Shown here: piece by piece, positions 47,248-64,000 of the stretch
Layout of the letters: the number at the start of each line of letters is the position of its first letter
How positions within the stretch are numbered: position 1 is the first letter of the stretch
NCBI RefSeq assembly: GCF_900115555.1
Contig: NZ_FOWX01000003.1
Location: 62,001 to 126,000 of the forward strand
Source: Pseudomonas borbori
GTDB lineage: Bacteria > Pseudomonadota > Gammaproteobacteria > Pseudomonadales > Pseudomonadaceae
Direction: 5' to 3'
Length of the DNA: 64,000 bases
Position numbers and translations under genes: made by a program
Notes under the pieces: generated by a model
Databases searched by the model: none
What the model was told of the DNA's origin: nothing
The model's input: only the letters and a program-made list of their open reading frames with translations

Positions 47248-47280
47248 GTCGTCACCTTGTCGAATTCGCGTCAATCAGGC

Positions 47281-48738
47281 CTACAGCCCACCGATATGGA
47301 AGGCTTTGACTTCCAGATACTCGTCCAGGCCGTACTTGGAGCCTTCACGGCCCAGGCCGGACTGCTTGACGCCGCCAAACGGTGCCACCTCCATGGAGAT
47401 GAGCCCGGTATTGAGGCCGACCATGCCGAACTCCAGGGCCTCGCCGAAGCGCCACGAGCGGCGTAGATCCTGGGTGAAGAAGTACGCGGCCAAGCCATAG
47501 GGCGTGGCATTGGCCAAGGCCAGCGCTTCAGCCTCGTCGGTAAAGCGCATCAGCGGTGCCACTGGGCCAAAGGTTTCTTCGTTGGCCAGCAACATGCCGG
47601 CATGGGCCTCGCCGAGCACGGTCGGCTCGACGAACTGGTCGTCGCCCGCGGGAATACCACCGCAGAGCAAACGGCCGCCTTTACTCAGGGCATCGTCGAT
47701 ATGCTTGGCGACCTTGCTCACCGCCGCCGCGTTGATCAGCGGGCCGGTGGTCACGCCCTGCTCCAGGCCGTTGCCGACCTTGAGCTTGCCGACCTCCTCC
47801 ACCAGACGTTGGGCGAAGCGCTCGTAGATGCCCTCCTGCACCAGGATCCGGTTGGCGCAGACGCAGGTCTGTCCGGCATTGCGGAACTTGCTCTGCATGA
47901 CCCCGGCCACCGCCTGTTCCAGGTCGGCGTCGTCGAATACGATGAAGGGCGCGTTGCCGCCCAATTCGAGGCTGAGGCGCTTGATCTGATCGGCGCTCTG
48001 GCGCATCAGCAAGCTGCCCACTGCGGTCGAGCCGGTGAAGGAAATCTTGCGCACCGTCGGGTTGCCGGTCAGCTCTTCGCCGATACCCACCGGCATGCCG
48101 GTGACCACGTTGAACACCCCGGCAGGAATGCCGACCCGCTCGGCCAGCACCGCCAGCGCCAGCGCCGACAGCGGGGTCAGGTCCGAGGGCTTGACGATCA
48201 CCGGGCAGCCGGCCGCCAGGGCCGGCGCGCACTTGCGGGTGATCATCGCGTTAGGGAAGTTCCACGGGGTGATAGCGGCGCAAACTCCGACCGGCTGCTT
48301 CAGGGTCAGCAGGCGGCGGTCGCCACTGGGCGCCGGAATGGTCTCGCCGTAAATCCGGCGGGCCTCCTCGGCGAACCATTTGACGAAGCTGGCCCCGTAG
48401 CGAATCTCGCCCTGGGCTTCATGGAGCGGCTTGCCCTGCTCGCAGGTCATGATCAAGGCCAAATCGTCGAGGTTATCGAGCATGGCCTGATACCAACGCT
48501 CCAGCAGCGCCGCGCGTTCGGCGGCCGGGCGCGCCCGCCAGGCCGGCCAGGCGCGTTCGGCGGCCTCGATGGCGCGACGGGTTTCGCCGCCTTGCAGAGC
48601 CGGCACCCGCGCCAGGCATTCGCCGTTGGCCGGGTTGATGACATCCAGGGTGGCTGCGTTATCGGCAGCGATCCACTGCCCGTCGATATAAGCGAGTTCT
48701 GCCAGCAGGCTGGGGTCTTTCAGACGATTCTTGAGCAT
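47281..48738 (-). CDS. gabD: NAD(P)-dependent succinate-semialdehyde dehydrogenase
   Basis: 485 aa, full-length aldehyde dehydrogenase. It oxidises succinate semialdehyde (or glutarate semialdehyde) to the acid. The N-terminal PWNFPNAMITRKCAPALAAG cofactor loop, the general base Glu in LSLELGGNAPFIVF and the catalytic Cys in NAGQTCVCANRI are all present. GabD-like residues are strong, but gabT is not adjacent; a GabT-like aminotransferase lies 8 kb away. It is upstream of the tartrate-type dehydrogenase on the same strand. Confidence 0.9.
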   Translation of the reverse strand: MLKNRLKDPSLLAELAYIDGQWIAADNAATLDVINPANGECLARVPALQGGETRRAIEAAERAWPAWRARPAAERAALLERWYQAMLDNLDDLALIMTCEQGKPLHEAQGEIRYGASFVKWFAEEARRIYGETIPAPSGDRRLLTLKQPVGVCAAITPWNFPNAMITRKCAPALAAGCPVIVKPSDLTPLSALALAVLAERVGIPAGVFNVVTGMPVGIGEELTGNPTVRKISFTGSTAVGSLLMRQSADQIKRLSLELGGNAPFIVFDDADLEQAVAGVMQSKFRNAGQTCVCANRILVQEGIYERFAQRLVEEVGKLKVGNGLEQGVTTGPLINAAAVSKVAKHIDDALSKGGRLLCGGIPAGDDQFVEPTVLGEAHAGMLLANEETFGPVAPLMRFTDEAEALALANATPYGLAAYFFTQDLRRSWRFGEALEFGMVGLNTGLISMEVAPFGGVKQSGLGREGSKYGLDEYLEVKAFHIGGL

Positions 48739-51326: not shown

Positions 51327-52484
51327 CTACAGCTTCAACGAACCCAGCAACCCCTCGAGAAAGCGCTCGCCGGCGTCCATCTGGCTGACTTCGATGAATT
51401 CGTCGGGCTTGTGCGCCTGTTCGATGGAGCCCGGCCCGCAGACCACCACCGGTACATTCAGGCGCTGGCTGAACAAGCCACCCTCGGTGCCGAAGGACAC
51501 CTTCGCGCTGCCGGTATCCGCCGGGGCGAAGTTCTTCAACAAACGCACCGCTTCCACGCTGGGATGGGTATCGAGGCCGGGGTAGACGTTGAGGGTCTCG
51601 ATCTCGATGTCGGCGACGCTGGACAAGCGCTTGGCCTCGCGCACTATCGTCTCGGCCTGTTCGCGCATCTGATCGAGAAACTGATCGAGGTCATCGGCCG
51701 GCAGATTGCGCACTTCAAAATCCAGGCTGCACAGGTTCGGCACTATATTCAGCGCCTTGCCGCCGACGATTTGCCCGACATGCACGGTGCTATAGGGCAC
51801 GTCGTAGTCCGCATCCTGCGCGCCCTGCTCCTGCAAACGCTGCTGGCTCTGGCGCAGTGCGGCGATAAAGTCGCAGGCCACGTGAATGGCGTTGACCGAG
51901 CGCGGCGCCAGGGACGAGTGCGCTTCCTGGCCCCGGCAGAAGGCGCGGTAGGAACCCTTGCCCTTGTGGCCGAGGACGAACTGCATCTCGGTCGGTTCGC
52001 CGACGATACACAGGAACGGGCGCAACGGCGCCAGGTGCAACACATCGAGCAGGCGGCGCACACCGACGCAGCCGATTTCCTCGTCATGCGACAGCGCCAG
52101 CTGCAACGGCCGGCTCAACGAGGCATCGGCGGCCTCGAGCATGGCGTCGATGGCCAGGGCGATAAAACCCTTCATGTCGCAGCTGCCGCGGCCGTAGATG
52201 CGCCCATCCTTCAGCGTCGCCTGGAACGCCGGCACGCTCCAGGCCTGGCCGGCGGCGGGTACCACGTCGGTGTGCCCGGACAGCAGAATCCCCGGCACAT
52301 CGCGCGGGCCGGTGCTGGCGAACAGATTGGCCTTGCGCCCGCTCTCGTCCTTGACGATCAAGGACTCGATGCCCTTGCTCAGCAGCAGCTCGCGCACATA
52401 TTCGATCAACGCCAGGTTCGACTCCGACGAAACGGTGTCGAAGGCGATCAGCCGTTTGAAAATTTCCAGGACACGGGGTTTCAT
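51327..52484 (-). CDS. argE: Acetylornithine deacetylase-type amidohydrolase
   Basis: 385 aa, M20 zinc peptidase family. It has LLSGHTDVVPAAGQ, YGRGSCDMKGFIAL and LALSHDEEIGCVGVRRL, giving the His, Asp and Glu metal and base residues. The dimerisation lid lies at about 180-290 and the late His motif is GTEGGLF. It resembles ArgE and removes an acyl group from an N-acyl amino acid. In this setting the substrate may be an N-substituted amino acid from the neighbouring importer rather than acetylornithine. The start overlaps the end of the broken oxidase gene by 4 bp, so it is in the same transcript. Confidence 0.87.
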   Translation of the reverse strand: MKPRVLEIFKRLIAFDTVSSESNLALIEYVRELLLSKGIESLIVKDESGRKANLFASTGPRDVPGILLSGHTDVVPAAGQAWSVPAFQATLKDGRIYGRGSCDMKGFIALAIDAMLEAADASLSRPLQLALSHDEEIGCVGVRRLLDVLHLAPLRPFLCIVGEPTEMQFVLGHKGKGSYRAFCRGQEAHSSLAPRSVNAIHVACDFIAALRQSQQRLQEQGAQDADYDVPYSTVHVGQIVGGKALNIVPNLCSLDFEVRNLPADDLDQFLDQMREQAETIVREAKRLSSVADIEIETLNVYPGLDTHPSVEAVRLLKNFAPADTGSAKVSFGTEGGLFSQRLNVPVVVCGPGSIEQAHKPDEFIEVSQMDAGERFLEGLLGSLKL

Positions 52485-52804
52485 GAGGCCTTGCTCCGCT
52501 GCAGGGATGAAGTGGCGAACCGGCGGATATGAAAGGGTTCGATGGCGGTGCTGGTGCTACCGCTGCTGATCAACTCGGCCATCACGCCCCCTACCCCTGG
52601 GCCGAGCTGGAAACCATGGCCGCTGAAACCGAAGGCGTAATACAGGCGATCGATCGTGCCGCTGGGCTCCATGATTGGCAGGGAATCCGGCAGGTAGCTC
52701 TCGATACCGCTCCAGGTGCGGATGATGTTCAGGTTGGCCATCTGTGGCGCCGCGCCCATCAGGCCGCCGCCGACGATCAGTACATCGCTCTGGGCAACGC
52801 TCAC
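52481..52804 (-). pseudogene. Internally deleted FAD oxidoreductase (HcnC/OoxB-like)
   Basis: 107 codons. The frame begins MSVAQSDVLIVGGGLMGAA, the FAD-binding Rossmann start of a DAO-type oxidase. After about residue 19 it switches to PQMANLNIIRTWSGIESYLPDSLPIM and GFSGHGFQLGPGVGGVMAEL, the C-terminal substrate and FAD-binding part. About 250-300 residues between are missing, an in-frame deletion near 52747. It cannot bind FAD properly. The gene stays in frame and couples into its neighbours by 4-bp overlaps on both sides, so the deletion looks recent. Confidence 0.85.
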
Positions 52805-54225
52805 GGTGCCATCTCCTCGGCCTGTTTGAGTTCCTCGGTCAACATCGACAGCGGCTTGACCGGCGCCTGGCCGCGTTGGCGGCCGACCCGTTCGACAGCG
52901 ACGCCGGCTGCCGCGGCTATCACCTCGGCGCCGGCCTGGGAGCAGTAGCGGCCCTGGCAGCGGCCCGTGCCGACCCGGCTGAAGGCCTTGGCGCGATTGA
53001 CCTCGCAGGCGCCCTTCACGTGGACCATGGCGCGCAACTCACCGGCCGTAATCATTTCGCAGCGGCAGACGATCGCCGCGTCCGGCAAGGTCCTGGCCTG
53101 CGCCGCCGGCCAGGGAAAGGCCTGGTACAGGCCGCGACTGAACTCATCCATCACCGTCAGGACGCGACGCTGCAAGGCGAGCGCTTCGCCGTGCACCGGC
53201 TGTTGCAGATCCTGTAACAGGGCCAGCGCAACCAGGCGTCCGGAGTGCTCCGCGGCATCGGCGCCGCGGATTCGTGCACCATCGCCGGCGGCATACACGC
53301 CACTGACCGAAGTGCGCCCTTCTTCATCGGTATCCAGCACCCACTGCTGCGATACCTCTTGGAAGCGCATACGGCAACCGGCCAAGTCGGCCAGCTGGGT
53401 TTCCGGACGCAGGTGATAGCCCATCGCGACCGCATCGCAGTCGAACTCCAGGCTGTCGCCGTGGCTGGTGCGCACCCGCACCGCGCTGACGCCGCTGGTC
53501 GCGTCGCCCAGCACCTGCAGGGGTTCGACCCCCAGGTGCAGCGGGATTCGCGCCAGGTGGAGCTGCGCCAACAGTTTCATCCCGGTGAACAGCAGTCCGG
53601 GACGCGCGAGCAACTTCGGCAGGGCCGCGATGCGCTTGCGCAACGGCGAAGTATCCAGCACCGCGGCCACAGTAGCGCCGGCTTTGAGGTACTGGCTGGC
53701 GACCAGGTACAGCAGCGGCCCGCTGCCGAGGAACACCACCTGGCGGCCGATCGACACCGTCTGCGCCTTCAGCGCTATCTGCGCCCCGCCCAGGCTATAG
53801 GTGCCGGCCAGTTGCCAACCCTCGATCGGCATCAGCCGATCGGTGGCGCCGGTGCAGAGAATCAGCGCATCGTAAGCAACGCTCGTATGCTTGCCCTGGC
53901 TGACGCAGCACAGCTGGCCCGGCCTCAGGTTCCACACCAGGGTATCGGGGCGGTAATCGATCTGCTCGCGCAGGCGGTCGAAGCTCTGGTGCAGCGCCCT
54001 GGCCTTGTCCGCCTCGCTACCGTACAGGGTGGCGTAGTCGCGGCTGAAACCCTCGGGCTGGCGGCGATAGATCTGGCCGCCATCGCGGCGGTTCTCATCC
54101 AGCACAATCGGCCTGATTCCCGCCGCCACCAGGGTTTCGGCGCAGCGGGTGCCGGCTGGGCCAGCACCGACTATCACCACCCGGACGCCGTCTTTCGGCA
54201 GATTTTTCAGCCGCGTAAGGGCCAT
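52801..54225 (-). CDS. FAD/NAD(P)-binding oxidoreductase subunit with BFD-like [2Fe-2S] (HcnB/OoxA-like)
   Basis: 474 aa. An FAD site (VVIVGAGPAGTRCAETL) and a second Rossmann (VVFLGSGPLLYLVASQYL) are followed by a C-terminal BFD-like ferredoxin domain with CRCEMITAGEL and GTGRCQGRYC cysteines. It matches the beta subunit of the HcnABC cyanide synthase, opine oxidase and D-hydroxyproline dehydrogenase group, which pass electrons from an amino-acid oxidase to the membrane. Its partner alpha subunit is broken here. ATG 54225 overlaps the ferredoxin-subunit gene upstream and the broken oxidase downstream. Confidence 0.87.
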   Translation of the reverse strand: MALTRLKNLPKDGVRVVIVGAGPAGTRCAETLVAAGIRPIVLDENRRDGGQIYRRQPEGFSRDYATLYGSEADKARALHQSFDRLREQIDYRPDTLVWNLRPGQLCCVSQGKHTSVAYDALILCTGATDRLMPIEGWQLAGTYSLGGAQIALKAQTVSIGRQVVFLGSGPLLYLVASQYLKAGATVAAVLDTSPLRKRIAALPKLLARPGLLFTGMKLLAQLHLARIPLHLGVEPLQVLGDATSGVSAVRVRTSHGDSLEFDCDAVAMGYHLRPETQLADLAGCRMRFQEVSQQWVLDTDEEGRTSVSGVYAAGDGARIRGADAAEHSGRLVALALLQDLQQPVHGEALALQRRVLTVMDEFSRGLYQAFPWPAAQARTLPDAAIVCRCEMITAGELRAMVHVKGACEVNRAKAFSRVGTGRCQGRYCSQAGAEVIAAAAGVAVERVGRQRGQAPVKPLSMLTEELKQAEEMAP

Positions 54226-54515
54226 ATCGCCTCCGCTTGCCTGGTGACGATATCCAGTCCCTCGCGGACTTCGTTGGAGCAAGCGCGCAGACGCTCGCCG
54301 CTACGGGTCCAGACCCAGCAGTCCTGGCAGGCACCCATCAGGCAGAAGCCGGCGCGTCGGCCCGGATCGAATTCCGACTGACGCAGGGCCGACACCTGGG
54401 TCAATAACGCAACCATCAGAGTGTCGCCCTGCAATGCCTCGATGGGCTCACCATCGACCAGCAGCCTGACGCTTGGCCGCTCACCCTCGGCCAAACGTAC
54501 GAAGCGTCCACTCAC
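54207..54515 (-). CDS. [2Fe-2S] subunit (HcnA/opine-oxidase-like)
   Basis: 102 aa, close to the 104 aa recalled for HcnA. The ferredoxin cysteines are CLMGACQDCWVW with a fourth Cys in RLRACSNEV. It is the small iron-sulfur subunit of the same heterotrimeric dehydrogenase group. The start is GTG 54515, overlapping the ATPase stop (GTGA); the longer frame to 54590 lies inside the ATPase gene and is rejected. Its 3' end overlaps the next gene by 19 bp. Confidence 0.85.
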   Translation of the reverse strand: MSGRFVRLAEGERPSVRLLVDGEPIEALQGDTLMVALLTQVSALRQSEFDPGRRAGFCLMGACQDCWVWTRSGERLRACSNEVREGLDIVTRQAEAIWPLRG

Positions 54516-56344
54516 GCGTAGGTGCCCACTAGCTTCATGCTGTTGACGCTTTCCTGCGCCTTGAGCAGATCGGCACCGCTGTGATGGCAAAGAATCTCAC
54601 TACCGCCGGCGATGTTGCCGCGCGGTGGCGCGCTGCGGTTGCACAGGCCGTCGATGCGCACCGGGCAGCGATCGAGGAACGGACAGAGATTCGCTACGCT
54701 GGCCGGCTCGCCGATCGGCGGCAGCCCGCCTTTAGCAGCCCCGCAGTGTTCCAGCCAGCCCTGGCGCAGCTCCGGCACCGAATTGGTCAACAGGTTGGTG
54801 TAGGGGTGGAACGGCGCCTGGACGAACGCCTGCTGATCGCCGGCCTCGACCTTGTAGCCGCTGTACATCACCACTATGTCGTCGCACAGCGCACGTACGG
54901 TGGAGATGTCATGGCTGATGAACAGGTAGGAGACCCCCAGTTCGCGGCGCAGGTCGCGTAACAGTTCGAGGATCGCCGCGCCCACCACCGTATCCAGCGC
55001 CGAGGTCACTTCGTCGCAGAGGATCAGATCCGGCTCCGCCGCCAGCGCCCGCGCCAGGTTGACGCGCTGTTTCTGCCCGCCGGACAACTCGCCGGGCCGG
55101 CGTTGCGCGATGCTGGCCGGCAACTGCACCAGCTCCAGCAACTCGGCGACCCGGCGCTGCTGCTGCGCGCCCTTCATGCCGTGGTAGAAACGCAGCGGGC
55201 GACCGAGGATCTGTTCGATGCTGTGCTTTGGGTTCAGCGCCGTATCGGCATTCTGGAAGACGAACTGCACACGGCGGAACTGCTCGCGGGTACGCCCGGC
55301 CAGCGTCCTGCTGAGCGGCTGGCCGTCCAGCAGGATATGTCCAGCCGTGGTTGGCGCCAGGCCGGCGATGGCCTGCGCCAGGGTGGTTTTTCCCGACCCC
55401 GACTCGCCGATCACGCCGACCGCCGCGCCGCGCCGAATCTTCAGATCGACGTCCTGCAGCACCTTCTTGGTGCCGTAGCAAATCTCCAGACCGTGAATGT
55501 CGAGCAGCACATCCTCTTCCGTCGAAGCTGCCTCTTGATCGCCCGCGCCCTGGCGCGCCGCCGGCCTTATCGCGGCCAGCAGGCTGCGGGTATAGGGATG
55601 CTCCGGCGCGGCGAGGATCTGTTCGGTAGGGTTGTTTTCCTGAATCTGGCCGTCGCGCAGCACGACGATGCGGTCGGCCATCTGCGCCACCACCGCCAGA
55701 TCGTGGGAGACGTAAATCGCCGTGGTGCCGCGTTCGCGCACCACCTTCTTGAACGCCCGCAGCACTTCGATCTGGGTCGTGACATCCAGCGCCGTGGTCG
55801 GCTCATCCAGGATCACCAGTGCCGGATCGGTGATCAGCGCCATCGCCGCCATCAGCCTCTGCAACTGCCCACCCGAGACCTGGTGCGGATAGCGCGCGCC
55901 GATGCGTTCCGGCTCCGGCAGCGCCAGCTCGCGAAACAGCTCGACGGCCTTGGCCTGCGCCTGCTTGCGCGACAGCACGCCGTGGATCAGCGCGCTTTCG
56001 ATCACCTGATCCATGATGCTCTTGGACGGATTGAATGCCGCGGCCGCGCTCTGCGCGATATAGGCCACGGTGCGCCCGCGCAGCTTTGCCAGCTGGGCAT
56101 TCGACAGTTTCAGCACGTCGACATCACCGACCCGTACCGAGCCGCCGACGATACGGCAACCCGAGCGGGCATAACCCATCAGCGACAGCGCTATGGTGCT
56201 CTTGCCGGAACCGGACTCGCCGATCAGCGCCAGTACCTCGCCTTTGTTCAGGCTGAAATCGGCACCGTGCACGATAGGTACATCGATGCCCTCTTCGTTA
56301 CGTGCGGCCACACGCAGGCCGCTTACCCTGACGATTTCGTTCAT
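54512..56344 (-). CDS. Fused dipeptide/opine-type ABC transporter ATPase (DppD-DppF fusion)
   Basis: 610 aa containing two complete ABC ATPase domains. The first has GESGSGKSTIALSLMGY near 42 and VSGGQLQRLMAAMALITDPALVILDEPTTALD. The second has GESGSGKTTLAQAIAGL near 316 and LSGGQKQRVNLARALAAEPDLILCDEVTSALD. The end carries the oligopeptide C-terminal CPFLDRCPVRIDGLC cysteine motif. The fused form replaces the usual separate DppD and DppF. It powers the two adjacent permeases. Confidence 0.93.
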   Translation of the reverse strand: MNEIVRVSGLRVAARNEEGIDVPIVHGADFSLNKGEVLALIGESGSGKSTIALSLMGYARSGCRIVGGSVRVGDVDVLKLSNAQLAKLRGRTVAYIAQSAAAAFNPSKSIMDQVIESALIHGVLSRKQAQAKAVELFRELALPEPERIGARYPHQVSGGQLQRLMAAMALITDPALVILDEPTTALDVTTQIEVLRAFKKVVRERGTTAIYVSHDLAVVAQMADRIVVLRDGQIQENNPTEQILAAPEHPYTRSLLAAIRPAARQGAGDQEAASTEEDVLLDIHGLEICYGTKKVLQDVDLKIRRGAAVGVIGESGSGKTTLAQAIAGLAPTTAGHILLDGQPLSRTLAGRTREQFRRVQFVFQNADTALNPKHSIEQILGRPLRFYHGMKGAQQQRRVAELLELVQLPASIAQRRPGELSGGQKQRVNLARALAAEPDLILCDEVTSALDTVVGAAILELLRDLRRELGVSYLFISHDISTVRALCDDIVVMYSGYKVEAGDQQAFVQAPFHPYTNLLTNSVPELRQGWLEHCGAAKGGLPPIGEPASVANLCPFLDRCPVRIDGLCNRSAPPRGNIAGGSEILCHHSGADLLKAQESVNSMKLVGTYA

Positions 56345-56345
56345 C

Positions 56346-57260
56346 TCACTTCTCCATCTCGCGCTTGGATCGCCCGCCGAAGCTGTCGATGAGCAAGTTG
56401 ACCCCCATGGTCAGGGTGGCGATGGCGACTGCCGGTGCCAGCACGGCCGGGGCACCCGCCCAAAGGCCCTCGATGTTTTCCCGTACCAGCGAGCCCCAGT
56501 CGGCGTCCGGTGGCTGCACGCCCAGCCCAAGGAAACTCATGGCGCTGAGCAGCAGCACCACGTAGACGAAACGCAGGCCAAAGTCGGTCATCACCGGGCG
56601 CAGCATGTTCGGCAGCACTTCGACGAAGATGATGTAGGGCATGGCTTCGCCGCGGGTACGCGCAACCTGGACAAAGTCCATGGTCATCACGTTCACCGCC
56701 ACCGCACGGGCGATCCGGAAGGAACCCGGCATATAGGCGAATGCGGCCATCAGCAACAACAGCGGCACCGAGGAGCCGAACGAGGCCACCATCAGCAGGG
56801 CAAAAATCTTGTTCGGAATCGCGATCAGCGCATCCTGGGTACGGCTTATGAGTGCATCGACCCAGCCACCGGACGCGGCCGCCACCAGCGCCAGGACCAC
56901 GCCAGCCGTGCAGGCCAGCGCTGTGGCCGCCAACGCCACGCCTATGGTGAAAGGCGCGCCGTGCAACAAGCGGCTGAGGATATCCCGCCCCAGGTAGTCG
57001 GTACCCAAGGGAAACTCCAGGCTGAGCGGGCCGAAGTAGCCGTCGCTGATCATGGCGTTGGCATCGTGGGGCGCGAACAGGGGGCCGGCGACGGCCATCA
57101 GCGCCCAGAAGGTCACGATCAGCAGACCGATGACGCCGCCTACAGACAGCGAGAGCCGGCGCCGGCGGGTCCGCAGCGGCTCATTCAGGCCATCCTGCTT
57201 CAGGGCGTTATCCTTGCCGCTGCCGATGCTCGCTTTAGGTGAAATACTGTTCGGTTTCAT
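56346..57260 (-). CDS. ABC transporter permease (DppC-like)
   Basis: 304 aa. A charged N-terminus precedes five to six membrane helices. The DppC-type loop EARTRGEAMPYIIFVEVLPNM near 210 is the EAA motif that couples to the ATPase. FPLGTDYLGRDILSRLLHGAPF near 90 is the family conserved N-terminal motif. It overlaps the DppB-like gene by 4 bp at its start and lies 1 bp before the ATPase gene. Confidence 0.93.
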   Translation of the reverse strand: MKPNSISPKASIGSGKDNALKQDGLNEPLRTRRRRLSLSVGGVIGLLIVTFWALMAVAGPLFAPHDANAMISDGYFGPLSLEFPLGTDYLGRDILSRLLHGAPFTIGVALAATALACTAGVVLALVAAASGGWVDALISRTQDALIAIPNKIFALLMVASFGSSVPLLLLMAAFAYMPGSFRIARAVAVNVMTMDFVQVARTRGEAMPYIIFVEVLPNMLRPVMTDFGLRFVYVVLLLSAMSFLGLGVQPPDADWGSLVRENIEGLWAGAPAVLAPAVAIATLTMGVNLLIDSFGGRSKREMEK

Positions 57261-58210
57261 TTGCGCAGCCTCGGGTTGGATAGGATTGCACAGAGGTCAG
57301 CCAGCAGAACCAGCATCAGAAAGCCCAAGCTGAACAACATCACGCACGCCTGGATCAACGGCATGTCACGCGTGACCACACCGTTTACCATCAGCGTCGC
57401 GACGCCCGGATAGTTGAAGATCGACTCGACTATGACTACGCCGCCCAACAGGTACGACAGGCTCAGCGCCACGGCGTTGGCAATCGGCCCGATCGCATTG
57501 GGCAGCGCATGACGAAGCACCACCCGGATTGGACGTGCGCCTTTGAGTATCGCCATTTCGACATAGGAGGCGCTGAGCTGATCGACCACCGCGGCCCGCG
57601 TCATGCGCGCCATCTGCGCCGTCAGTACGCAGCACAGCGTCAGCACCGGCAACGCGTAGATGCGCACCAGCTCACCGAACGACTCGACCTCGACGCTACG
57701 CGACAGCGCCGACAGCCAGCCCAGCTTCACGGCGAAGATCAGTACCGCGATGGTGGCGATCAGGAACTCCGGCACGGAGACGGCGAACACCGCCAGCATG
57801 TTGCTGTAACGGTCGAAGATCGAACCGCGGTACATCGCCGACAGAATACCTATGGTCAGCGCCAGCGGCACCGAGACCAACGCGGTAACCGCTGCCAGTT
57901 TCAGGGTATTGGGCAGCCGGCTGGCGATCATCTCGTCGACCGGCATGCCGTTGACCAGGGAGATGCCGGGATTGCCGGTGATCAGCCCGCCCAGCCAGTT
58001 GAAGTAACGCAGGTGCACGGGTAGATCCAGGCCTAACTGCGCACGCAGCGCCGCCAGCGCTTCCGCAGTCGCCTCCTGGCCGAGCTGTTCCTGGACCGCG
58101 TCGCCCGGCAGCAGGCTGGTGAGGAAAAACACCACCAGCGACACGATAAGCAGCGTAAGCACGCCTACAGCCAACCGACCACCAACCAGGCGTGCAATAG
58201 TGCTGTTCAT
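57257..58210 (-). CDS. ABC transporter permease (DppB-like)
   Basis: 317 aa with six membrane helices. The start LVGGRLAVGVLTLLIVSLVVFFLTSLLPGDAV is the DppB N-terminal signature. The EAA loop is YVEMAILKGARPIRVVLRHALPNA near 225. It pairs with the DppC-like permease (4-bp overlap) to form the channel of a peptide or opine importer. A 12-bp stem-loop separates it from the binding-protein gene. Confidence 0.93.
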   Translation of the reverse strand: MNSTIARLVGGRLAVGVLTLLIVSLVVFFLTSLLPGDAVQEQLGQEATAEALAALRAQLGLDLPVHLRYFNWLGGLITGNPGISLVNGMPVDEMIASRLPNTLKLAAVTALVSVPLALTIGILSAMYRGSIFDRYSNMLAVFAVSVPEFLIATIAVLIFAVKLGWLSALSRSVEVESFGELVRIYALPVLTLCCVLTAQMARMTRAAVVDQLSASYVEMAILKGARPIRVVLRHALPNAIGPIANAVALSLSYLLGGVVIVESIFNYPGVATLMVNGVVTRDMPLIQACVMLFSLGFLMLVLLADLCAILSNPRLRK

Positions 58211-58230
58211 AATTCATACCTTCACTTAGT

Positions 58231-58261
58231 GACGCCGCCTGCATGACCCGCAGGCGACGCC
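58231..58261 (-). other. Intercistronic stem-loop after the binding-protein gene
   Basis: In the minus-strand RNA GGCGUCGCCUGC pairs with GCAGGCGGCGUC (12 bp including two G-U pairs) around a 7-nt loop. It lies between the binding-protein stop and the permease start. Such hairpins often keep the upstream mRNA stable so that more binding protein than permease is made. Confidence 0.7.
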
Positions 58262-58292
58262 TTGGTTATCGAGCTATCGTTGCACCAATCGC

Positions 58293-59936
58293 TCAGGCAT
58301 CCAGCCAGACGTGCTCGGCGAACATGTAGCCCATCAACCCACCGAGTGGATGAGGGGTAAGTCCTTTCAACTTGGTATTGTGGCCATCGAGGCTGCTGTT
58401 GAACTGCGAAATACCGACACCGCAGTGTTCATGCACCAGCACCTGCATATCGGCATACATCTGCTTGCGTTTGGCGTCGTCGGTTTCACCGCGCGCGGCC
58501 AGCAACAACTGGTCGAACTGTTCGTTCTTCCAGCCCGATTCGTTGTTGCCGGCGTCGGACTTGAAGAACAGGCTGAACAACAAGTCGGCGGTCGGACGCG
58601 CACCGATGTTGCCGAAGCCCAGCGGATGCTTCATCCAGTGATTGGACCAGTAGCCGTCCGCCGGCACCCGCTTGATATCGAGCTTGAGGCCGATCTGCTG
58701 TCCCGAGAGCTGCAGCAACTGCGCGATGTCCAGCGAGCCGGTAGCGGCTTCGGACGCCACGAGAGGCAGGGAACGCCCGGCCATGCCGGATTTCTGCAGG
58801 TGAAACTTGGCCTTCTCCGGGTCGTACTCACGTTGTGGCAGACCGGCGAAATAGTAACGATTGCTGGGGGCGATCGGCTGGTCGTTGGCGATCTTGCCGT
58901 AGCCACGGAAGGCAGCCCGATTGATCTGTTTGCGATCGAGCAGATGCTTCATCGCCAGGACGAAATCCGGGTTCTGCACCGGGCCCAGATCATCGCGCAT
59001 GATCAGGTTGGTATAGCCACCGGTCGGGGTCTCCATCAACTCTACGTTGGCACTGTCCTGAATGCGCGAAACCGAACGCGGATTGATCGGGTTGATCAGG
59101 TCCACATCGCCGGCGAGCAGGGCACTGATGCGAGCGGCCTCGTCCGGAATCGAGAAGAACTCGATTTCGTCGAGGTAGGGCAGGCCCGGCTTCCAATAGC
59201 TGTCGTTGCGCGCGGCAATCGAGCGCACACCCGGCTGGAATTCCGCGCATTTGAAAGGCCCGGTGCCGTTGGCGAGGGCGAAATCGGTGGTGCCGTCACG
59301 CACGATGAGGAAGTGCGTGGTGGCGAGGATGGCCGGCAGGTCGGCGTTCGGGCTGGCCAAGCGGATCTGCAGCTCATGCGGCCCAACGGCCTTCACCTCC
59401 TCGAACTGCTGCGCGATGGTCAGCACCTTGGAGCCAGTTTCCGGCAGCTTGTGGCGGGTCAACGAATAGACGACGTCGGCCGAGGTGAATGGCTTGCCAT
59501 CGTGGAATACCACGTCCTTGCGCAGCTTGATGGTCCAGGAGATCGCGTCGGCTGTATCGAACGACTCCGCCAGGGCCATCTGCGGCGCCAGTTGCGCGTC
59601 CAGGACCGCCAAACCGTTATAGAACATGTTGTGACGACAGTAGTCGGTGTAGTTACCGCCCTTGGCCGGGTCCAGCGTATCGGCGGTCGAGCTGGTCGCA
59701 GTGGCGACCTTGATACGGCCACCGCGCTTGCCTTTGCCCGTGCTTGCGGAGGTTGCGGCGAACACTTGGCCGGCCGAGCCGAACAGGCTGCCGGCGCCTG
59801 CCACCGCCACCCCAGCCAGCCCCAACATGCGCAGCGCGTCACGGCGTGACATGCCCCGGTTGAGCCCTTCGAAGACACGCAGGCTTTCTTGACCTGTGAT
59901 CAGCTGAGAGTCGATTTTGTTTTTATTGTCAGTCAT
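58293..59936 (-). CDS. Tat-exported peptide/opine-type ABC substrate-binding protein
   Basis: 547 aa, SBP family 5. A twin-arginine signal SRRDALRMLG (Arg31 and Arg32) is followed by a hydrophobic stretch and cleavage near ASA or FAA. The mature domain has DTLDPAKGGNYTDYCRHNMFYNGLAVLD, SWTIKLRKDVVFHDGKPFTSADVVYSL (the family 5 signature), and a late GFGNIGARPTADLLFSLFF. It binds peptides or similar amino-acid derivatives and delivers them to the DppBC-like permeases. Tat export suggests folding before export. It lies 85 bp downstream of the FAD oxidase gene. Confidence 0.92.
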   Translation of the reverse strand: MTDNKNKIDSQLITGQESLRVFEGLNRGMSRRDALRMLGLAGVAVAGAGSLFGSAGQVFAATSASTGKGKRGGRIKVATATSSTADTLDPAKGGNYTDYCRHNMFYNGLAVLDAQLAPQMALAESFDTADAISWTIKLRKDVVFHDGKPFTSADVVYSLTRHKLPETGSKVLTIAQQFEEVKAVGPHELQIRLASPNADLPAILATTHFLIVRDGTTDFALANGTGPFKCAEFQPGVRSIAARNDSYWKPGLPYLDEIEFFSIPDEAARISALLAGDVDLINPINPRSVSRIQDSANVELMETPTGGYTNLIMRDDLGPVQNPDFVLAMKHLLDRKQINRAAFRGYGKIANDQPIAPSNRYYFAGLPQREYDPEKAKFHLQKSGMAGRSLPLVASEAATGSLDIAQLLQLSGQQIGLKLDIKRVPADGYWSNHWMKHPLGFGNIGARPTADLLFSLFFKSDAGNNESGWKNEQFDQLLLAARGETDDAKRKQMYADMQVLVHEHCGVGISQFNSSLDGHNTKLKGLTPHPLGGLMGYMFAEHVWLDA

Positions 59937-60021
59937 ATCAGTTCTTCCTTTCGAAATTGATAAGGCTCGGGTGCTCGCTCATTGGCGAAGCGTTTCTACA
60001 ACGTGACGCAACTGCATAAAT

Positions 60022-61296
60022 TCAGTGTAAGTAGTCCTGCAACCGGTAATACGCACCTACCACCGGCAGGAACCAGGGCTTGCCGAAATGCCCGGGAATC
60101 GCTGGCCAACTCAGCTCGCCCCAGGGGTTCGCCTCGGCCTTGCCATCCATCACCTCGGCCATCACCTGGCCCATGTGCACCGACATCTGCACGCCATGGC
60201 CGCTGTAACCCATGGAGTGGTACACGCCGCCATGCTGGCCGGCGCGTGGCAGGCGGTCCGCGGTCATGTCCACCAGCCCGCCCCAGCAGTAATCGACCTT
60301 GACATGGGCCAACTGCGGGAACATCTGCACCATCGCCGCGTGCAGCACCTTGCCGCTCTTGGCGTCGGAATTGCCGCCGGACATGGCGAAGCGCGCCCGA
60401 CCGCCGAACAGCAGACGGTTGTCCGGGGTCACCCGGAAGTAGTTGCCGATCATGCGGCTGGTGACGTACGAACGCTGTTGCGGCAGCAGGCGGTCGATCA
60501 GCTCTTTGGGCAGCACTTCGGTGGCGATGATGAAGCTGCCCACCGGCACTATCCGCCGCCGATACCAACCCAGGCCGCCATGTTGACTGGCGCCGGTCGC
60601 CATCAGAATTTGCCCGGTCTGCAGGCTGCCCCGGCTGGTATCGACCCGATAGCCACCGGCCTCGGCCTTCCAGCCCTGCACGGTGGTCTGCTGGTAGATC
60701 AGCGCGCCGTGCCGCGCCGCCGCCTCGGCCAGGCCGACACCGAAGCGCCCGACATGCATCTGCACGCCGTTACGCTGCAGTAGGCCGCCATAGAATTGGG
60801 CCGAGTCGACTTCGGCGCGGGCTTCTTCGGCGGACAGCAGCTCGACTTCGGCATCGACCTCGCGGCGAATCAATTCGCAGGTTCGCGCCAGCCCTTCGTA
60901 ATGTTGGGGCTTGGCGGCCAGCTTGAGCTTGCCGCTACGCCTAAAGTCGCAGGCGATCTGTTCCTGCTCGACCAGCGTGACCACGCTCTGCACCGCACTT
61001 TCGTAGGCCTGGTAATAGACCCGCGCCTTGTCGGCACCGAGGCTGGCGACGAGGCCGCTGTAGTCCTGGGCGACCCCGGTGTTGCAATGCCCACCGTTGC
61101 GCCCGGAGGCCTCACCGACCACCCGTCCCGCTTCCAGCACCGCCACGCTCGCACCCTTCAGGGCCAGCGCCCGGGCCGCCGACAGACCGGTAAAACCGCC
61201 GCCGACGACGACAACATCGACTCGCGCCGGCAGCGCGCCGGTCTGAGCGCCGGTGAACGCCGGTGCGGTATCGAGCCAGTAGGACTCACTGCGCAT
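60022..61296 (-). CDS. FAD-dependent amine/amino-acid oxidase (DAO family, PuuB-like)
   Basis: 424 aa. The FAD site is VDVVVVGGGFTGLSAARALALKGASVAVLEAG near residue 30. The conserved SGRNGGHCNTGVAQD block follows, and the C-terminus has YSGHGVQMSVHMGQVMAEVMDG. It resembles gamma-glutamylputrescine oxidase and N-substituted amino-acid oxidases that use FAD. The likely job is to oxidise the imported compound. It is preceded by a HAD gene (39 bp) and followed by the transporter. Confidence 0.9.
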   Translation of the reverse strand: MRSESYWLDTAPAFTGAQTGALPARVDVVVVGGGFTGLSAARALALKGASVAVLEAGRVVGEASGRNGGHCNTGVAQDYSGLVASLGADKARVYYQAYESAVQSVVTLVEQEQIACDFRRSGKLKLAAKPQHYEGLARTCELIRREVDAEVELLSAEEARAEVDSAQFYGGLLQRNGVQMHVGRFGVGLAEAAARHGALIYQQTTVQGWKAEAGGYRVDTSRGSLQTGQILMATGASQHGGLGWYRRRIVPVGSFIIATEVLPKELIDRLLPQQRSYVTSRMIGNYFRVTPDNRLLFGGRARFAMSGGNSDAKSGKVLHAAMVQMFPQLAHVKVDYCWGGLVDMTADRLPRAGQHGGVYHSMGYSGHGVQMSVHMGQVMAEVMDGKAEANPWGELSWPAIPGHFGKPWFLPVVGAYYRLQDYLH

Positions 61297-61335: not shown

Positions 61336-62004
61336 TCAGAGGCCGACCAGGCCGGCCAGCCCGCCGATATCGGCGATCTGCCGGTAGTTGTAGCAGGCGT
61401 TGCCCGGCTGCTCATGGCCGCGGGCGACGAAGGCCTTGTTCTTGATCTTCATGTCTTCGGCCGGCATCAGGTCGTAGCGGAAGCTCGAGGACACGTGCAG
61501 CACGTCCTCCGGACCGCAACCGAGGTTGTCGAGCATGTATTCGAAGGCTTGCAGGCGCGGCTTGTAGGCCTGGGCTTGCTGAGCGGTGAACACCTTGTGG
61601 AAAGGCACGCCCAGCTTGTCGACGTTGGACATGATCTGCTCGTCCATGGCGTTGGAGAAGATCACCAGCGGGATCTTGTCGGCGATCTTCGCCAGGCCGG
61701 CGGTCACGTCGGGATGCGGGCCCCAGGTCGGCACGGCGTTGTAGTAGAGCTGGCCTTCGCCGCGATATTCGATGCCCCAGCGCTTGCACAGGCGCGACAT
61801 GGCGGTATCGAGAATTTCATCATATGGCCGCCAGTCACCCATCACCTGGTCCAGGCGATAGGCGGTGAAATCCTTGACGAACTGGTCCATCTGCTCAGGG
61901 GCAATGCGATCGGCGAACAGCTCGCGCGTCAGGGGGCCCATCTGGAAGTTGGTCAGCGTGCCGTAGCAGTCGAAGGTGATGTACTTGGGGCGCAGAAAGC
62001 TCAT
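61336..62004 (-). CDS. HAD hydrolase of the type II haloacid-dehalogenase group
   Basis: 222 aa. Nucleophile Asp12 in TFDCYGTLTNF, SN pair in IFSNAMDE, Lys in AYKPRLQAFEYML and a motif IV-like HVSSSFRYDLMPAEDM. True L-2-haloacid dehalogenases have SSNxxD here; this reads SSSFRYD, so dehalogenation is uncertain and a phosphatase role is possible. It is the first gene of the HAD-FAD oxidase-ABC unit; its promoter must lie in the 62005-62272 stretch, downstream of a terminator. Confidence 0.88.
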   Translation of the reverse strand: MSFLRPKYITFDCYGTLTNFQMGPLTRELFADRIAPEQMDQFVKDFTAYRLDQVMGDWRPYDEILDTAMSRLCKRWGIEYRGEGQLYYNAVPTWGPHPDVTAGLAKIADKIPLVIFSNAMDEQIMSNVDKLGVPFHKVFTAQQAQAYKPRLQAFEYMLDNLGCGPEDVLHVSSSFRYDLMPAEDMKIKNKAFVARGHEQPGNACYNYRQIADIGGLAGLVGL

Positions 62005-62407: not shown

Positions 62408-63334
62408 TCAATAACCGCGGGAGCGATCGATAACGTTCAAGAGCGCCTCGCCGCGCTGATGCCGGCGAAGATTATCCAGCAGGATCGGCGCGGCCGATTC
62501 AGGCTGGGTCATGCTCGCCACATGGGGAGTCAGGAATACCCGCGGATGGGCCCAGAAGGGATGCTCGGCCGGCAGCGGCTCGGGATCGGTCACGTCGAGA
62601 ATCGCGCGGGACAGTTGGCCCGAATCCAGCGCTTCGAGCAGATCGGCATCCACCAAATGCGGACCGCGGCCGACGTTGATCAGCGAGGCCCCGGCGGGCA
62701 ACGCCGAGAACAGCTTGCGGTTCAGGATACCCTTGGTCGCCGACGTCAGCGGCACCAGACAAATCAGGATGTCGCAACCCTTGAGGAAGTGCTGCAACTG
62801 ATCGGGGCCAGCGAAACTCTCGACGTTATCCAAGTGACGCAGCGAACGATTCCAACCGCGCAACCTGAAACCGTAGTTCGCCAGCCGCTGCAGAACGGCA
62901 CTGCCGAGCGAGCCCATGCCCATGACGCCGATCGTGCGCGCCGAGGCAGGCGGCACTTCGAGCGGGTCCCAGGTACGCGCCGCCTTCGCCGCCACATAGT
63001 CGAAGAAGTCGCGGTGAAGGGCCAGCACGGCGAGGCTGACATATTCCACCATGCCGTCGATGATGCCGGGCTCGACCATCCTGACGATGGGAATGTGCTT
63101 GGGTACGGCGGAAAAGTCGACATGATCGACCCCGGCTCCCGAGGAAAAAAACACCTTCAGCCGAGGCAGCTTGGCGATGAACTCCGCCGGCGCCTGCCAG
63201 GCTATCAGGTATTCGACCTCGTCGAGGTTGCCGGCGTCAGGCCAGACCCGGAAGTCGAGTTCGGGGGCATGCTCGGCGAAGTAGCTCGCCCAAGCGGCCG
63301 CACGGGGTGCATCTGATCGATAGAGAATGCTCAT
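62408..63334 (-). CDS. ghrA: Glyoxylate/hydroxypyruvate reductase A type dehydrogenase (copy 2)
   Basis: 308 aa, same length and plan as the copy at 39344-40270. The NAD(P) loop here is complete (VMGMGSLGSAV). Catalytic Arg in NVGRGPHLVDADL, Glu in DPEPLPAEHPF and His in TPHVASMTQPESA are present. The shared ends DNLRRHQRGE and ID-R-GY show recent common ancestry. It follows the dehydratase by 9 bp in an operon, suggesting reduction of a 2-oxo acid product. Confidence 0.9.
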   Translation of the reverse strand: MSILYRSDAPRAAAWASYFAEHAPELDFRVWPDAGNLDEVEYLIAWQAPAEFIAKLPRLKVFFSSGAGVDHVDFSAVPKHIPIVRMVEPGIIDGMVEYVSLAVLALHRDFFDYVAAKAARTWDPLEVPPASARTIGVMGMGSLGSAVLQRLANYGFRLRGWNRSLRHLDNVESFAGPDQLQHFLKGCDILICLVPLTSATKGILNRKLFSALPAGASLINVGRGPHLVDADLLEALDSGQLSRAILDVTDPEPLPAEHPFWAHPRVFLTPHVASMTQPESAAPILLDNLRRHQRGEALLNVIDRSRGY

Positions 63335-63343
63335 ATTGAAGTC

Positions 63344-64000
63344 CTACCAACCGCCTACCCAGCCGTCGAAGAGCCCTTCGGGAAGGGTGTCTTCGTCGGC
63401 GCCGCGGAGAAAGTCGAAGTCGCAGCCCAGATGGGCTTGCTCGATGTGTCGGTTGTAGAGATTGCGATAGCCGCGCTTGTGCTGGGACGCCGGAGGCTGC
63501 CATTCCTGGCGGCGACGCTCAAGTTCTTCCGGGGCGACGCAGAGTTCCAGCCGGCGAGCCGGAACATCAAGTTCGATGATGTCGCCGTTGCGCACCAGGG
63601 CGAGCGGACCGCCGATGGCGGCCTCGGGGGAAACGTGCAGCACCGCGGCGCCGTAGGCGGTACCGCTCATGCGCGCGTCCGAGATGCGCAACATATCGCG
63701 CACGCCACGTGCCATCAAATGGCGCGGCAGGGGCAGCATGCCCCACTCTGGCATCGCCGCGCCCACCGGGCCGGCGTTGCGCAGAATCAGCACGCTGTTC
63801 TCGTCGATGCCGAGTTCGGGATTGTCGATCTGGTCGGCGATGGTCTGCACATCCTCGAACACCACCGCCGGGCCACGATGACGGAACAGTCTCGGGTCCG
63901 CCGCGCAGGCCTTCATCACCGCCCCATCCGGCGCCAGGTTGCCCCTCACCACGACCATCGTCTCGCCTGACTTCACCGGATTGTCCAGGGCGCGAATAAC
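63344..64000 (-). CDS. IlvD/Edd-family dehydratase, C-terminal part (partial)
   Basis: The frame is open to the window edge at 64000, so the 5' end is missing; about 218 codons are seen. It begins VIRALDNPVKSGETMVVVRGNLAPDGAVMK, part of the dihydroxy-acid or sugar-acid dehydratase fold. It continues GPAVVFEDVQ, ARMSGTAYGAAVLHVSPEAAIGGPLALVRNGDII, the swivel domain of the family. Such enzymes dehydrate sugar acids (arabinonate, xylonate) or 2,3-dihydroxy acids. The C-terminus (PASQHKRGYRNLYNRHIEQAHLGCDFDFL) matches the sugar-acid branch, which is a family-level guess. The gene is followed 9 bp later by the ghrA copy. Confidence 0.87.
   Translation of the reverse strand, partial: VIRALDNPVKSGETMVVVRGNLAPDGAVMKACAADPRLFRHRGPAVVFEDVQTIADQIDNPELGIDENSVLILRNAGPVGAAMPEWGMLPLPRHLMARGVRDMLRISDARMSGTAYGAAVLHVSPEAAIGGPLALVRNGDIIELDVPARRLELCVAPEELERRRQEWQPPASQHKRGYRNLYNRHIEQAHLGCDFDFLRGADEDTLPEGLFDGWVGGW

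Follow-up and report, generated by a model that had tools for sequence, protein, structure and literature searches.

In the opine dehydrogenase OdhABC of Pseudomonas putida, incomplete sets of one or two subunits, including alpha with gamma, are almost inactive (PMC4575208). In the periplasm of a Pseudomonas, a hydrolase converts azetidine-2-carboxylate to 2-hydroxy-4-aminobutyrate, which is then imported and transaminated, and Aspergillus nidulans pairs such a HAD hydrolase with an Mpr1-type acetyltransferase against azetidine-2-carboxylate toxicity (PMC8016842). Here we analyse 64,000 nucleotides of Pseudomonas borbori (the window; contig NZ_FOWX01000003.1 of assembly GCF_900115555.1, C58:62001-126000 in our numbering, where G, C and L mark genomes, contigs and loci), in which genes of both enzyme families are joined with a Dpp-type importer on the minus strand. 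The genome comprises 5.27 Mb in 96 contigs, and its genus and that of its kin genomes are taken as Pseudomonas. The locus is a Dpp-type catabolic operon with an interchangeable importer and a disposable dehydrogenase. No description of the operon was found in the open-licence literature searched.

Gene order of the operon is conserved

In transcription order, the run reads edd, ghrA, HAD, a DAO-family flavin oxidase (DAOox), a substrate-binding protein (SBP), DppB, DppC, a fused ATPase (DppDF), the dehydrogenase subunits gamma and alpha, a beta remnant, ArgE, a chemoreceptor (MCP), a semialdehyde dehydrogenase (SSADH) and a tartrate/D-malate dehydrogenase (TDH) (Table 1). The gaps are 39 bp between HAD and DAOox, 85 bp between DAOox and SBP and 82 bp between SBP and DppB; from DppB to ArgE all neighbours overlap or lie 1 bp apart (-4, +1, -4, -19, -4 and -4, gamma overlapping DppDF by 4 bp). 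The run is predicted to be one operon, from 46168 to past 64000. Upstream, past edd and outside the window, lie a second HAD copy, an aldehyde dehydrogenase (ALDH) and an Lrp-type regulator.

All 11 first relatives (L053-L063, chosen by alpha identity of at least 65%) carry HAD, DAOox, the four importer genes, gamma, alpha, a beta of 384-389 aa and ArgE in the same order. A scan with DAOox, using one genome per species, gave 556 loci, the best 80 of which form a set conditioned on DAOox; by title, these are Pseudomonas except for Pokkaliibacter (L183) and a 'Gammaproteobacteria bacterium' (L150). The order HAD > DAOox > SBP > DppB > DppC > DppDF > gamma-alpha-beta > ArgE is complete in 70 of the 80 (L107 with extra HAD matches), eight show the same order without gamma-alpha-beta, and two (L139 and L147) are without ArgE. 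HAD is retained, and the importer follows DAOox, in all 80. SSADH, or at least its start, comes after ArgE in 65 of the 74 loci with more than 0.3 kb past ArgE. Upstream of HAD, the 69 loci with more than 5 kb there contain a GNAT acetyltransferase (59), an EutQ-like cupin (57) and ALDH1 (30).

The MCP gene lies between ArgE and SSADH in the window, G010 and G259 (L097/L098); its start is seen after ArgE in G403 (L103, L107) and L186, and it is absent in G148 and L128. Its place inside the gene run was seen only in part of the lineage with the window's importer type (type B, below). As for the marker genes, SBP was found at E <= 1e-200 in 88 of 398 genus genomes and HAD at E <= 1e-60 in 66 of 298; across the class, HAD at E <= 1e-25 was found in 2 of 369 genomes, one being the window genome. 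Some close SBP and HAD relatives sit in other clusters, so the operon itself is rarer than its marker genes. A plasmid search gave 54 records; among the 20 matches listed, at 72.0-78.7% identity, only the ATPase/permease part of the query was matched.

The original prediction had described a tightly spaced minus-strand run of a HAD hydrolase, a DAO oxidase, an SBP-5/DppBC importer with fused ATPases, HcnA/HcnB-like subunits and an ArgE-type amidohydrolase, and both the gene families and the gaps bear this out. Its proposal that the gene order be sought in other genomes led to the strongly conserved linkage described above, where absence of that linkage had been named as the refuting outcome. 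Its interval, 52481-61296, leaves out two of the genes it names, HAD and ArgE. The run extends further, to ghrA/edd, the second HAD, ALDH and Lrp on one side and to MCP, SSADH and TDH on the other. Both HcnA/HcnB-like subunits were found; the third, which had gone unrecognised, is the beta remnant, and the two thus stand without a catalytic subunit.

The importer has been exchanged

The window SBP, DppB, DppC and DppDF (importer type B) are 51-69% identical to those of nine core relatives with the type-A importer, whose own importers are 86-91% mutually identical on average (range 80-98). For the window HAD, DAOox, gamma, alpha and ArgE, identity to these nine relatives is 74-89%. The SBP itself is 59-66% identical to those of the 11 first relatives and 85-97% identical to type-B SBPs in six other genomes. 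In five of these (G259, G220, G010, G403 and G148) it belongs to this operon; in G056 (L100/L101, G056:C26), the type-B importer lies in a different cluster with another DAO, a GNAT, cupins and a sugar-acid-kinase-like gene. That cluster represents a possible source pool for the exchange. By eye, it also contains a PdxA-like gene.

In the enzyme tree (HAD, DAOox and ArgE; 85 rows, L139 and L147 being excluded for want of ArgE), the eight type-B rows are nested inside type A, and the enzyme data reject type A as a single clade (approximately unbiased test, p-AU 0.0003, 42 rows). In the importer tree, type B falls outside all type A, Pokkaliibacter included, and the importer data reject the enzyme-derived grouping (p-AU 6e-40, 22 rows, simpler model). 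The two trees are thus in conflict, which marks the importer as a replacement: the whole unit, SBP-DppB-DppC-DppDF, has been exchanged for a distant homologue in the window lineage. Against G259, the synonymous distance dS is 0.08-0.16 for the four importer genes, 0.49-0.50 for HAD and DAOox and 0.23-0.31 for gamma, alpha and ArgE. This drop over exactly the four importer genes is a sign of a further recent exchange between the window and G259 lineages.

The dehydrogenase module is repeatedly lost

The gamma-alpha-beta module is absent from ten loci, eight of the 80 plus those of G010 and G148. The DppDF-ArgE gap in these loci is 70 bp in L108, 43 bp in L122 and L131, 34 bp in L135, 89 bp in L155, 204 bp in L102 (G010) and -4 bp in L123, L128, L178 and L104 (G148). 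In seven of the ten, the last 30 bases before ArgE match the beta tail of module-bearing loci at 77-97%, compared with 30-47% in a control shifted by 45 bases; G010, one of the seven, also retains the gamma start (E 1e-7). Mapping of the module state onto the enzyme tree requires six or more changes, with the window scored as module-bearing. The module is being deleted repeatedly in the relatives.

Gain of the module in place of loss was considered and rejected, given the beta-tail remnants in seven of the ten module-less loci and the presence of the module in the outgroup rows.

The module is impaired in 4 of 8 importer-B rows versus 7 of 79 importer-A rows (Fisher p 0.008), and whole-module loss alone gives 3 of 8 versus 7 of 79 (p 0.046), although kinship among the rows and the double entry of one type-A genome (L062, L180) mean that their independence is overstated. 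This skew, together with the repeated deletions and their footprints, would fit a module that is simply decaying after the importer exchange, while the importer, DAOox, HAD, ArgE, SSADH and TDH work without it. The relatedness of the rows and the four of eight importer-B rows that keep an intact module count against simple decay, whose chances we regard as evenly balanced. It is compatible with the explanation that we favour below and does not exclude it.

In the window, the sole case seen in which the catalytic subunit alone is removed, what remains of a beta protein of about 384 aa has a DAO profile match confined to the final 56 positions (298-353 of 353). Relative to the intact G259 gene, 831 bp are missing, a multiple of 3; the 53 and 271 bases that flank the gap correspond to roughly the first 18 and the last 89 codons. 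The exact edge of the deletion is not fixable because a short repeat, GGCGC, lies at the junction. The deletion kept the reading frame, and the stop of the remnant still overlaps the ArgE start by 4 bp. Its tail differs from that of G259 by 17 synonymous and 8 non-synonymous codons of 90. Beta is full length in all 72 module-bearing loci of the 80.

The window thus has the FAD/BFD alpha and the 2Fe-2S gamma of an OdhABC-type opine dehydrogenase and lacks the full-length DAO-type beta; a full-length HcnC-like subunit, as in HcnABC, is likewise missing from the operon. Since incomplete OdhABC sets are almost inactive in P. putida, loss of activity is the default inference for the window enzyme. 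By this analogy, the gamma-alpha-beta enzyme of the window genome has most likely lost activity, and the heteromeric dehydrogenase is probably either dead or borrowing another beta.

Such borrowing would mean that alpha and gamma are still used with the beta of a second set (C58:135620-136753, about 20 kb off) or with DAOox. Bradyrhizobium indeed pairs two unlike beta subunits with one alpha/gamma (PMC4575208), the window alpha and gamma are open and 92 and 95% identical to those of G259, and, among seven genomes searched, a second alpha of at least 60% identity occurs only in the window genome (64%; adjoining intact beta, 54%). However, this second beta is already accompanied by an alpha and a gamma of its own (set near C58:135620-138420), no orphan close beta was found in the window genome, and no close second set exists in G010 and G148, which have also lost the module, so none is required. 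We consider subunit exchange decidedly unlikely.

Two further descriptions of the locus were rejected. HcnABC proper does not fit as a label, given the truncated catalytic subunit and the different set of neighbouring genes. Nor is the locus a simple array of pseudogenes: the operon genes are open except for beta, and the dN of the importer is low relative to G259.

HAD and a possible azetidine substrate

The window HAD is a distant match to solved structures, scoring 93.3 bits to 8hp5, 92.3 to 3smv, 56.5 to CESH (8wmt) and 42.1 to L-DEX (1jud), with 37-42 bits to the classical dehalogenases 1jud, 1zrm and 1qq5. The entry 3smv is the L-azetidine-2-carboxylate hydrolase of Pseudomonas, and 8hp5 is named '(S)-2-haloacid dehalogenase'. 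Azetidine-2-carboxylate is the end ring of nicotianamine and mugineic acids, and D-malate is the form accepted by tartrate/D-malate-type dehydrogenases. If the ring were opened with inversion, the (R)-hydroxy acid and D-malate would result, and the azetidine ring could sensibly be broken down by the series HAD > aminotransferase > SSADH > D-malate dehydrogenase. Among ten extra HAD regions that were fetched, six (L200-L205) have a class-III-aminotransferase-like gene beside HAD and a DAO oxidase close by; these aminotransferase-like genes are 29-33% identical to the one adjoining the window operon. L206 corresponds to the operon, with an additional HAD and an additional DAO, and L197-L199 yielded no further gene from the set used as query.

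P. fluorescens SBW25 lowers mugineic and deoxymugineic acid in grass root exudate, with tentative genes only, and P. putida strains are cited as not degrading phytosiderophores (PMC7786132). Nicotianamine synthase was over the cut-off in none of 17 carriers, six of which have weak sub-cut-off matches. The opine-synthase family PF02317 has no member in the window genome and one member, outside the operon, in 3 of the 17 carriers. Therefore the food is probably external.

It is tempting to speculate that the operon is a pseudomonad pathway for eating nicotianamine and mugineic-acid phytosiderophores, or other azetidine-2-carboxylate compounds, although we rate this as unlikely. Under such a scheme, the importer would take up the plant chelator, to whose source MCP would guide the cells. 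DAOox and the opine-type dehydrogenase would cut the 3-amino-3-carboxypropyl arms, yielding aspartate- or malate-semialdehyde, and the aldehyde dehydrogenases would oxidise the released semialdehydes. HAD would act on the freed azetidine-2-carboxylate, opening the ring with inversion, and the resulting (R)-4-amino-2-hydroxybutyrate would be converted to malate semialdehyde, then to D-malate by SSADH, and finally, through TDH, to pyruvate. The upstream GNAT of 59 of the 69 relatives might N-acetylate the toxic ring amino acid like yeast Mpr1, with ArgE reversing the reaction.

Several points argue against this scheme. Identity to the hydrolase is low, and 8hp5 scores equally high; the known hydrolase is periplasmic, and the window HAD has no signal peptide by eye. 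An APH kinase-like gene with no place in the scheme accompanies HAD in six regions, and the iron-responsive SBW25 genes named in PMC7786132 belong to other Pfam families.

The second HAD copy (C58:127243-127908, L051:14244-14909) has 96.0% DNA identity to the window gene, and the two copies flank edd-ghrA. In other genomes, the two copies are 99.6% identical in G403 and 99.0% in G148, with only 88-92% between genomes despite the common arrangement. The copies are under concerted evolution, probably through gene conversion. In G243, two HAD copies (99.1%) occupy other places of the same operon, one of them between DppDF and gamma.

Features of the operon and neighbouring clusters

The family evidence for each gene is collected in Table 1. 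TDH is 94% identical to the gene after SSADH in the type-A operon L053; a second tartrate dehydrogenase model, NF006048, stayed below its cut-off (480 vs 501), and the substrate range of TDH is taken to be that of such enzymes in general. ArgE reaches the curated acetylornithine deacetylase family score with both models, its nearest solved structure being the acetylornithine deacetylase 7rsf. Alpha is 71-81% identical in ten relatives and 62% in L063. DppB and DppC owe their names to inspection and to resemblance to their counterparts in relatives, SBP and the ATPases to Pfam; all parts of an SBP5/Dpp-Opp-Nik importer are present (SBP_bac_5, two permeases, two ATPase domains and oligo_HPY). 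The N-terminus of SBP looks twin-arginine-like by eye.

The AlphaFold model of DAOox (mean predicted local distance difference test 81.5) resembles glycine oxidase at rank 1, sarcosine oxidase beta at rank 2, L-proline dehydrogenase beta at rank 5 and the iminodiacetate oxidase IdaA at rank 33. A sequence search of solved structures gave no match for DAOox (limit 1e-15) or alpha (limit 1e-10). The ghrA position is the same in G403 and G148. The best NCBIfam match of the partial edd gene is L-arabinonate dehydratase; the full gene, in L051, encodes 585 aa.

Table 1 Predicted genes of the operon within the window, in order of position
Gene	Product	Position	Strand	Evidence
TDH	tartrate / D-malate dehydrogenase	46168..47250	-	TIGR02089 551 bits vs cut-off 470
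SSADH	SSADH-like (GabD-type) semialdehyde dehydrogenase	47281..48738	-	TIGR01780 688 bits vs 646; 91% to L053
MCP	chemoreceptor, 679 aa	49019..51058	-	PF00015, PF00672
ArgE	ArgE-type M20 deacylase	51327..52484	-	NF005710 515.7 vs 412, TIGR01892 359.8 vs 297.7 bits
beta remnant	remnant of HcnC/OdhB-like catalytic subunit, 107 aa	52481..52804	-	deletion junction 52752/52751
alpha	HcnB/OdhA-like subunit, FAD	52801..54225	-	Pyr_redox_2 and Fer2_BFD by Pfam, run on open reading frame 52801-54282
gamma	HcnA/OdhC-like subunit, 2Fe-2S	54207..54515	-	Fer2_4 E 2e-21, run on longer open reading frame 54207-54590
DppDF	two fused ATPase domains, importer type B	54512..56344	-	two ABC_tran stretches and oligo_HPY
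DppC	permease, importer type B	56346..57260	-	51-53% to 11 first relatives; 99% to G259
DppB	permease, importer type B	57257..58210	-	62-67% to 11 first relatives; 99% to G259
SBP	SBP_bac_5 family, importer type B	58293..59936	-	PF00496 245 bits
DAOox	DAO-family flavin oxidase	60022..61296	-	PF01266
HAD	HAD hydrolase, azetidine-2-carboxylate-hydrolase-like	61336..62004	-	TIGR01428 156 vs 125 bits; nearest solved 3smv, 8hp5
ghrA	ghrA-like 2-hydroxyacid dehydrogenase, between the two HAD copies	62408..63334	-	best NCBIfam GhrA, below cut-off
edd	IlvD/Edd-family (L-arabonate-type) dehydratase, cut by window end	63344..64000	-	PF24877

Beyond the window, C58:131000-150000 (L052) holds a second amine-catabolic cluster with a HAD paralogue (52%), an APH kinase-like gene, a class III aminotransferase, a cupin and a full gamma-alpha-beta set. 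It further contains EutB/BhcB-like and EutC-like genes (below cut-offs), two more DAO oxidases, and a 3-oxo-tetronate kinase and decarboxylase over cut-off. A lone extra beta lies on the opposite strand upstream of HAD in L117 (L117:2733-3914), and similarly in other loci, L125, L139, L143 and L182 among them, at 81-84% to the L053 beta; the one in L117 is near a 3-hydroxy-D-aspartate aldolase-like gene (below cut-off). In G022 (L063:2555-6613), a HyuA/HyuB-type pair (hydantoinase/oxoprolinase/caprolactamase-like) stands between ALDH and HAD. L195 (G093, another family of the order) has a smaller core of GNAT - ALDH1 - DAO - HAD (66%), with no importer or dehydrogenase module matched within the 19.9 kb fetched.

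Discussion

Together, our results make it probable that this conserved Pseudomonas operon serves the uptake of an external N-substituted amino acid or small aminopolycarboxylate and its oxidative C-N cleavage, as judged from gene families and gene order. The Dpp-type importer would bring the compound in, and DAOox would cleave it by oxidation, releasing an amine together with an aldehyde or keto acid. The aldehyde would be oxidised by the ALDHs, an acyl group removed by ArgE, and HAD would hydrolyse at the carbon alpha to the carboxylate, as in the opening of a small ring. The product would then be led to central metabolism by SSADH and the tartrate/D-malate dehydrogenase. The gamma-alpha-beta module may be a former second, opine-dehydrogenase-like oxidising branch for part of the substrate range. 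The MCP in the gene run fits an external attractant.

Some observations weigh against this account of a replaced importer, a failing module and an amino acid substrate. The clade groups for the approximately unbiased tests were picked after the trees had been seen. L123, L128 and L104 have no beta-tail footprint above control (43-47% vs 47-57%), and an intact module is retained in 4 of 8 importer-B rows, which speaks against a simple loss story. The beta remnant was seen in one draft genome only, so that a strain-specific event or an assembly fault is possible. The beta of D-hydroxyproline dehydrogenase works alone (PMC4575208), and therefore subunit rules vary within the family. Finally, the family names of SBP span many substrates, and its best NCBIfam matches are nickel and glutathione binders.

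The last point, with oligopeptide binders also among the best matches, bears on whether the importer has an unrelated cargo, be it ordinary peptides, glutathione, heme or a nickel chelate, and its place next to the enzymes is a coincidence. The solved relatives of SBP include YliB, AgaA and nickel-, heme-, dipeptide- and agrocinopine-binding proteins, of which we take YliB to be a glutathione binder. However, all 11 NCBIfam matches are far under their curated cut-offs (best 136 vs 600 bits), so that no named substrate class is reached, and the importer follows DAOox in all 80 loci despite the allele swap; an unrelated importer of this kind is very unlikely.

Ordinary octopine/nopaline-type opine catabolism is just as improbable: the alpha/beta/gamma plan and the clustering with an ABC importer do resemble OdhABC, NoxAB and OoxAB, but beta is truncated here, the module is absent in 8 of 80 relatives while HAD is kept in all, the opine-synthase gene beside the P. 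putida cluster has no counterpart in the window genome, the octopine scheme, to the extent that it was consulted (PMC4575208), does not accommodate HAD, SSADH or TDH, and DAOox is also left unexplained.

We return to the reading of an operon for uptake and C-N cleavage. The subunit plan shared by opine oxidases, HcnABC and D-hydroxyproline dehydrogenase, which the original prediction had pointed out, does match; with most of beta missing, a working HcnABC- or opine-type oxidase is unlikely here. Its suggestion of opine or modified-amino-acid catabolism fits the gene families, less so the lack of a PF02317 match in the genome. It had held that no substrate could be named, and the substrate is still unproven, but a more specific class, the azetidine compounds, can now be proposed as a hypothesis.

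Close relatives of the marker genes SBP and HAD occur in roughly one in five of the Pseudomonas species sampled. Several carrier species are presumably plant-associated, judging by their names. The locus offers a clear case of modular operon evolution, with an importer swapped in place and a three-subunit dehydrogenase lost repeatedly with readable footprints. If the substrate were a plant chelator, the operon would supply genes for the loss of mugineic acids by SBW25, for which there are now tentative ones only (PMC7786132).

Compared by description, the locus shares with OdhABC of P. putida and with NoxAB and OoxAB the FAD-containing alpha, the DAO-type beta, the 2Fe-2S gamma, overlapping genes and an adjoining ABC importer; the order is B-C-A in P. 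putida (PMC4575208) and gamma-alpha-beta in the window. The window differs in its SBP5/Dpp importer, its 107-aa beta and its joining to HAD, DAOox, ArgE, SSADH and TDH. HcnABC and D-hydroxyproline dehydrogenase, compared at the level of families from PMC4575208 and general knowledge and not by named sequences, have the same subunit families in different gene company. The L-azetidine-2-carboxylate hydrolases (Pseudomonas A2C and the fungal AzhA, PMC8016842) are, like the window HAD, of HAD type II, but the relationship is distant. Scores to 3smv are 82-92 bits, compared with 37-42 bits to classical L-2-haloacid dehalogenases, and the nucleophile aspartate and the segment round the last acidic motif align. 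The roles of these motifs are assumed from general knowledge. The Puu (putrescine) pathway presumably offers a further likeness in its DAO oxidase, PuuC-like aldehyde dehydrogenase, amide hydrolase and SSADH, whereas the window hydrolase is an M20 enzyme and its importer is Dpp-type. The EDTA degradation system of Chelativorans BNC1 resembles the window through its DAO-type iminodiacetate oxidase, the rank 33 match to DAOox, and through what we take to be a Dpp-like importer with an SBP5 protein; this is a resemblance only.

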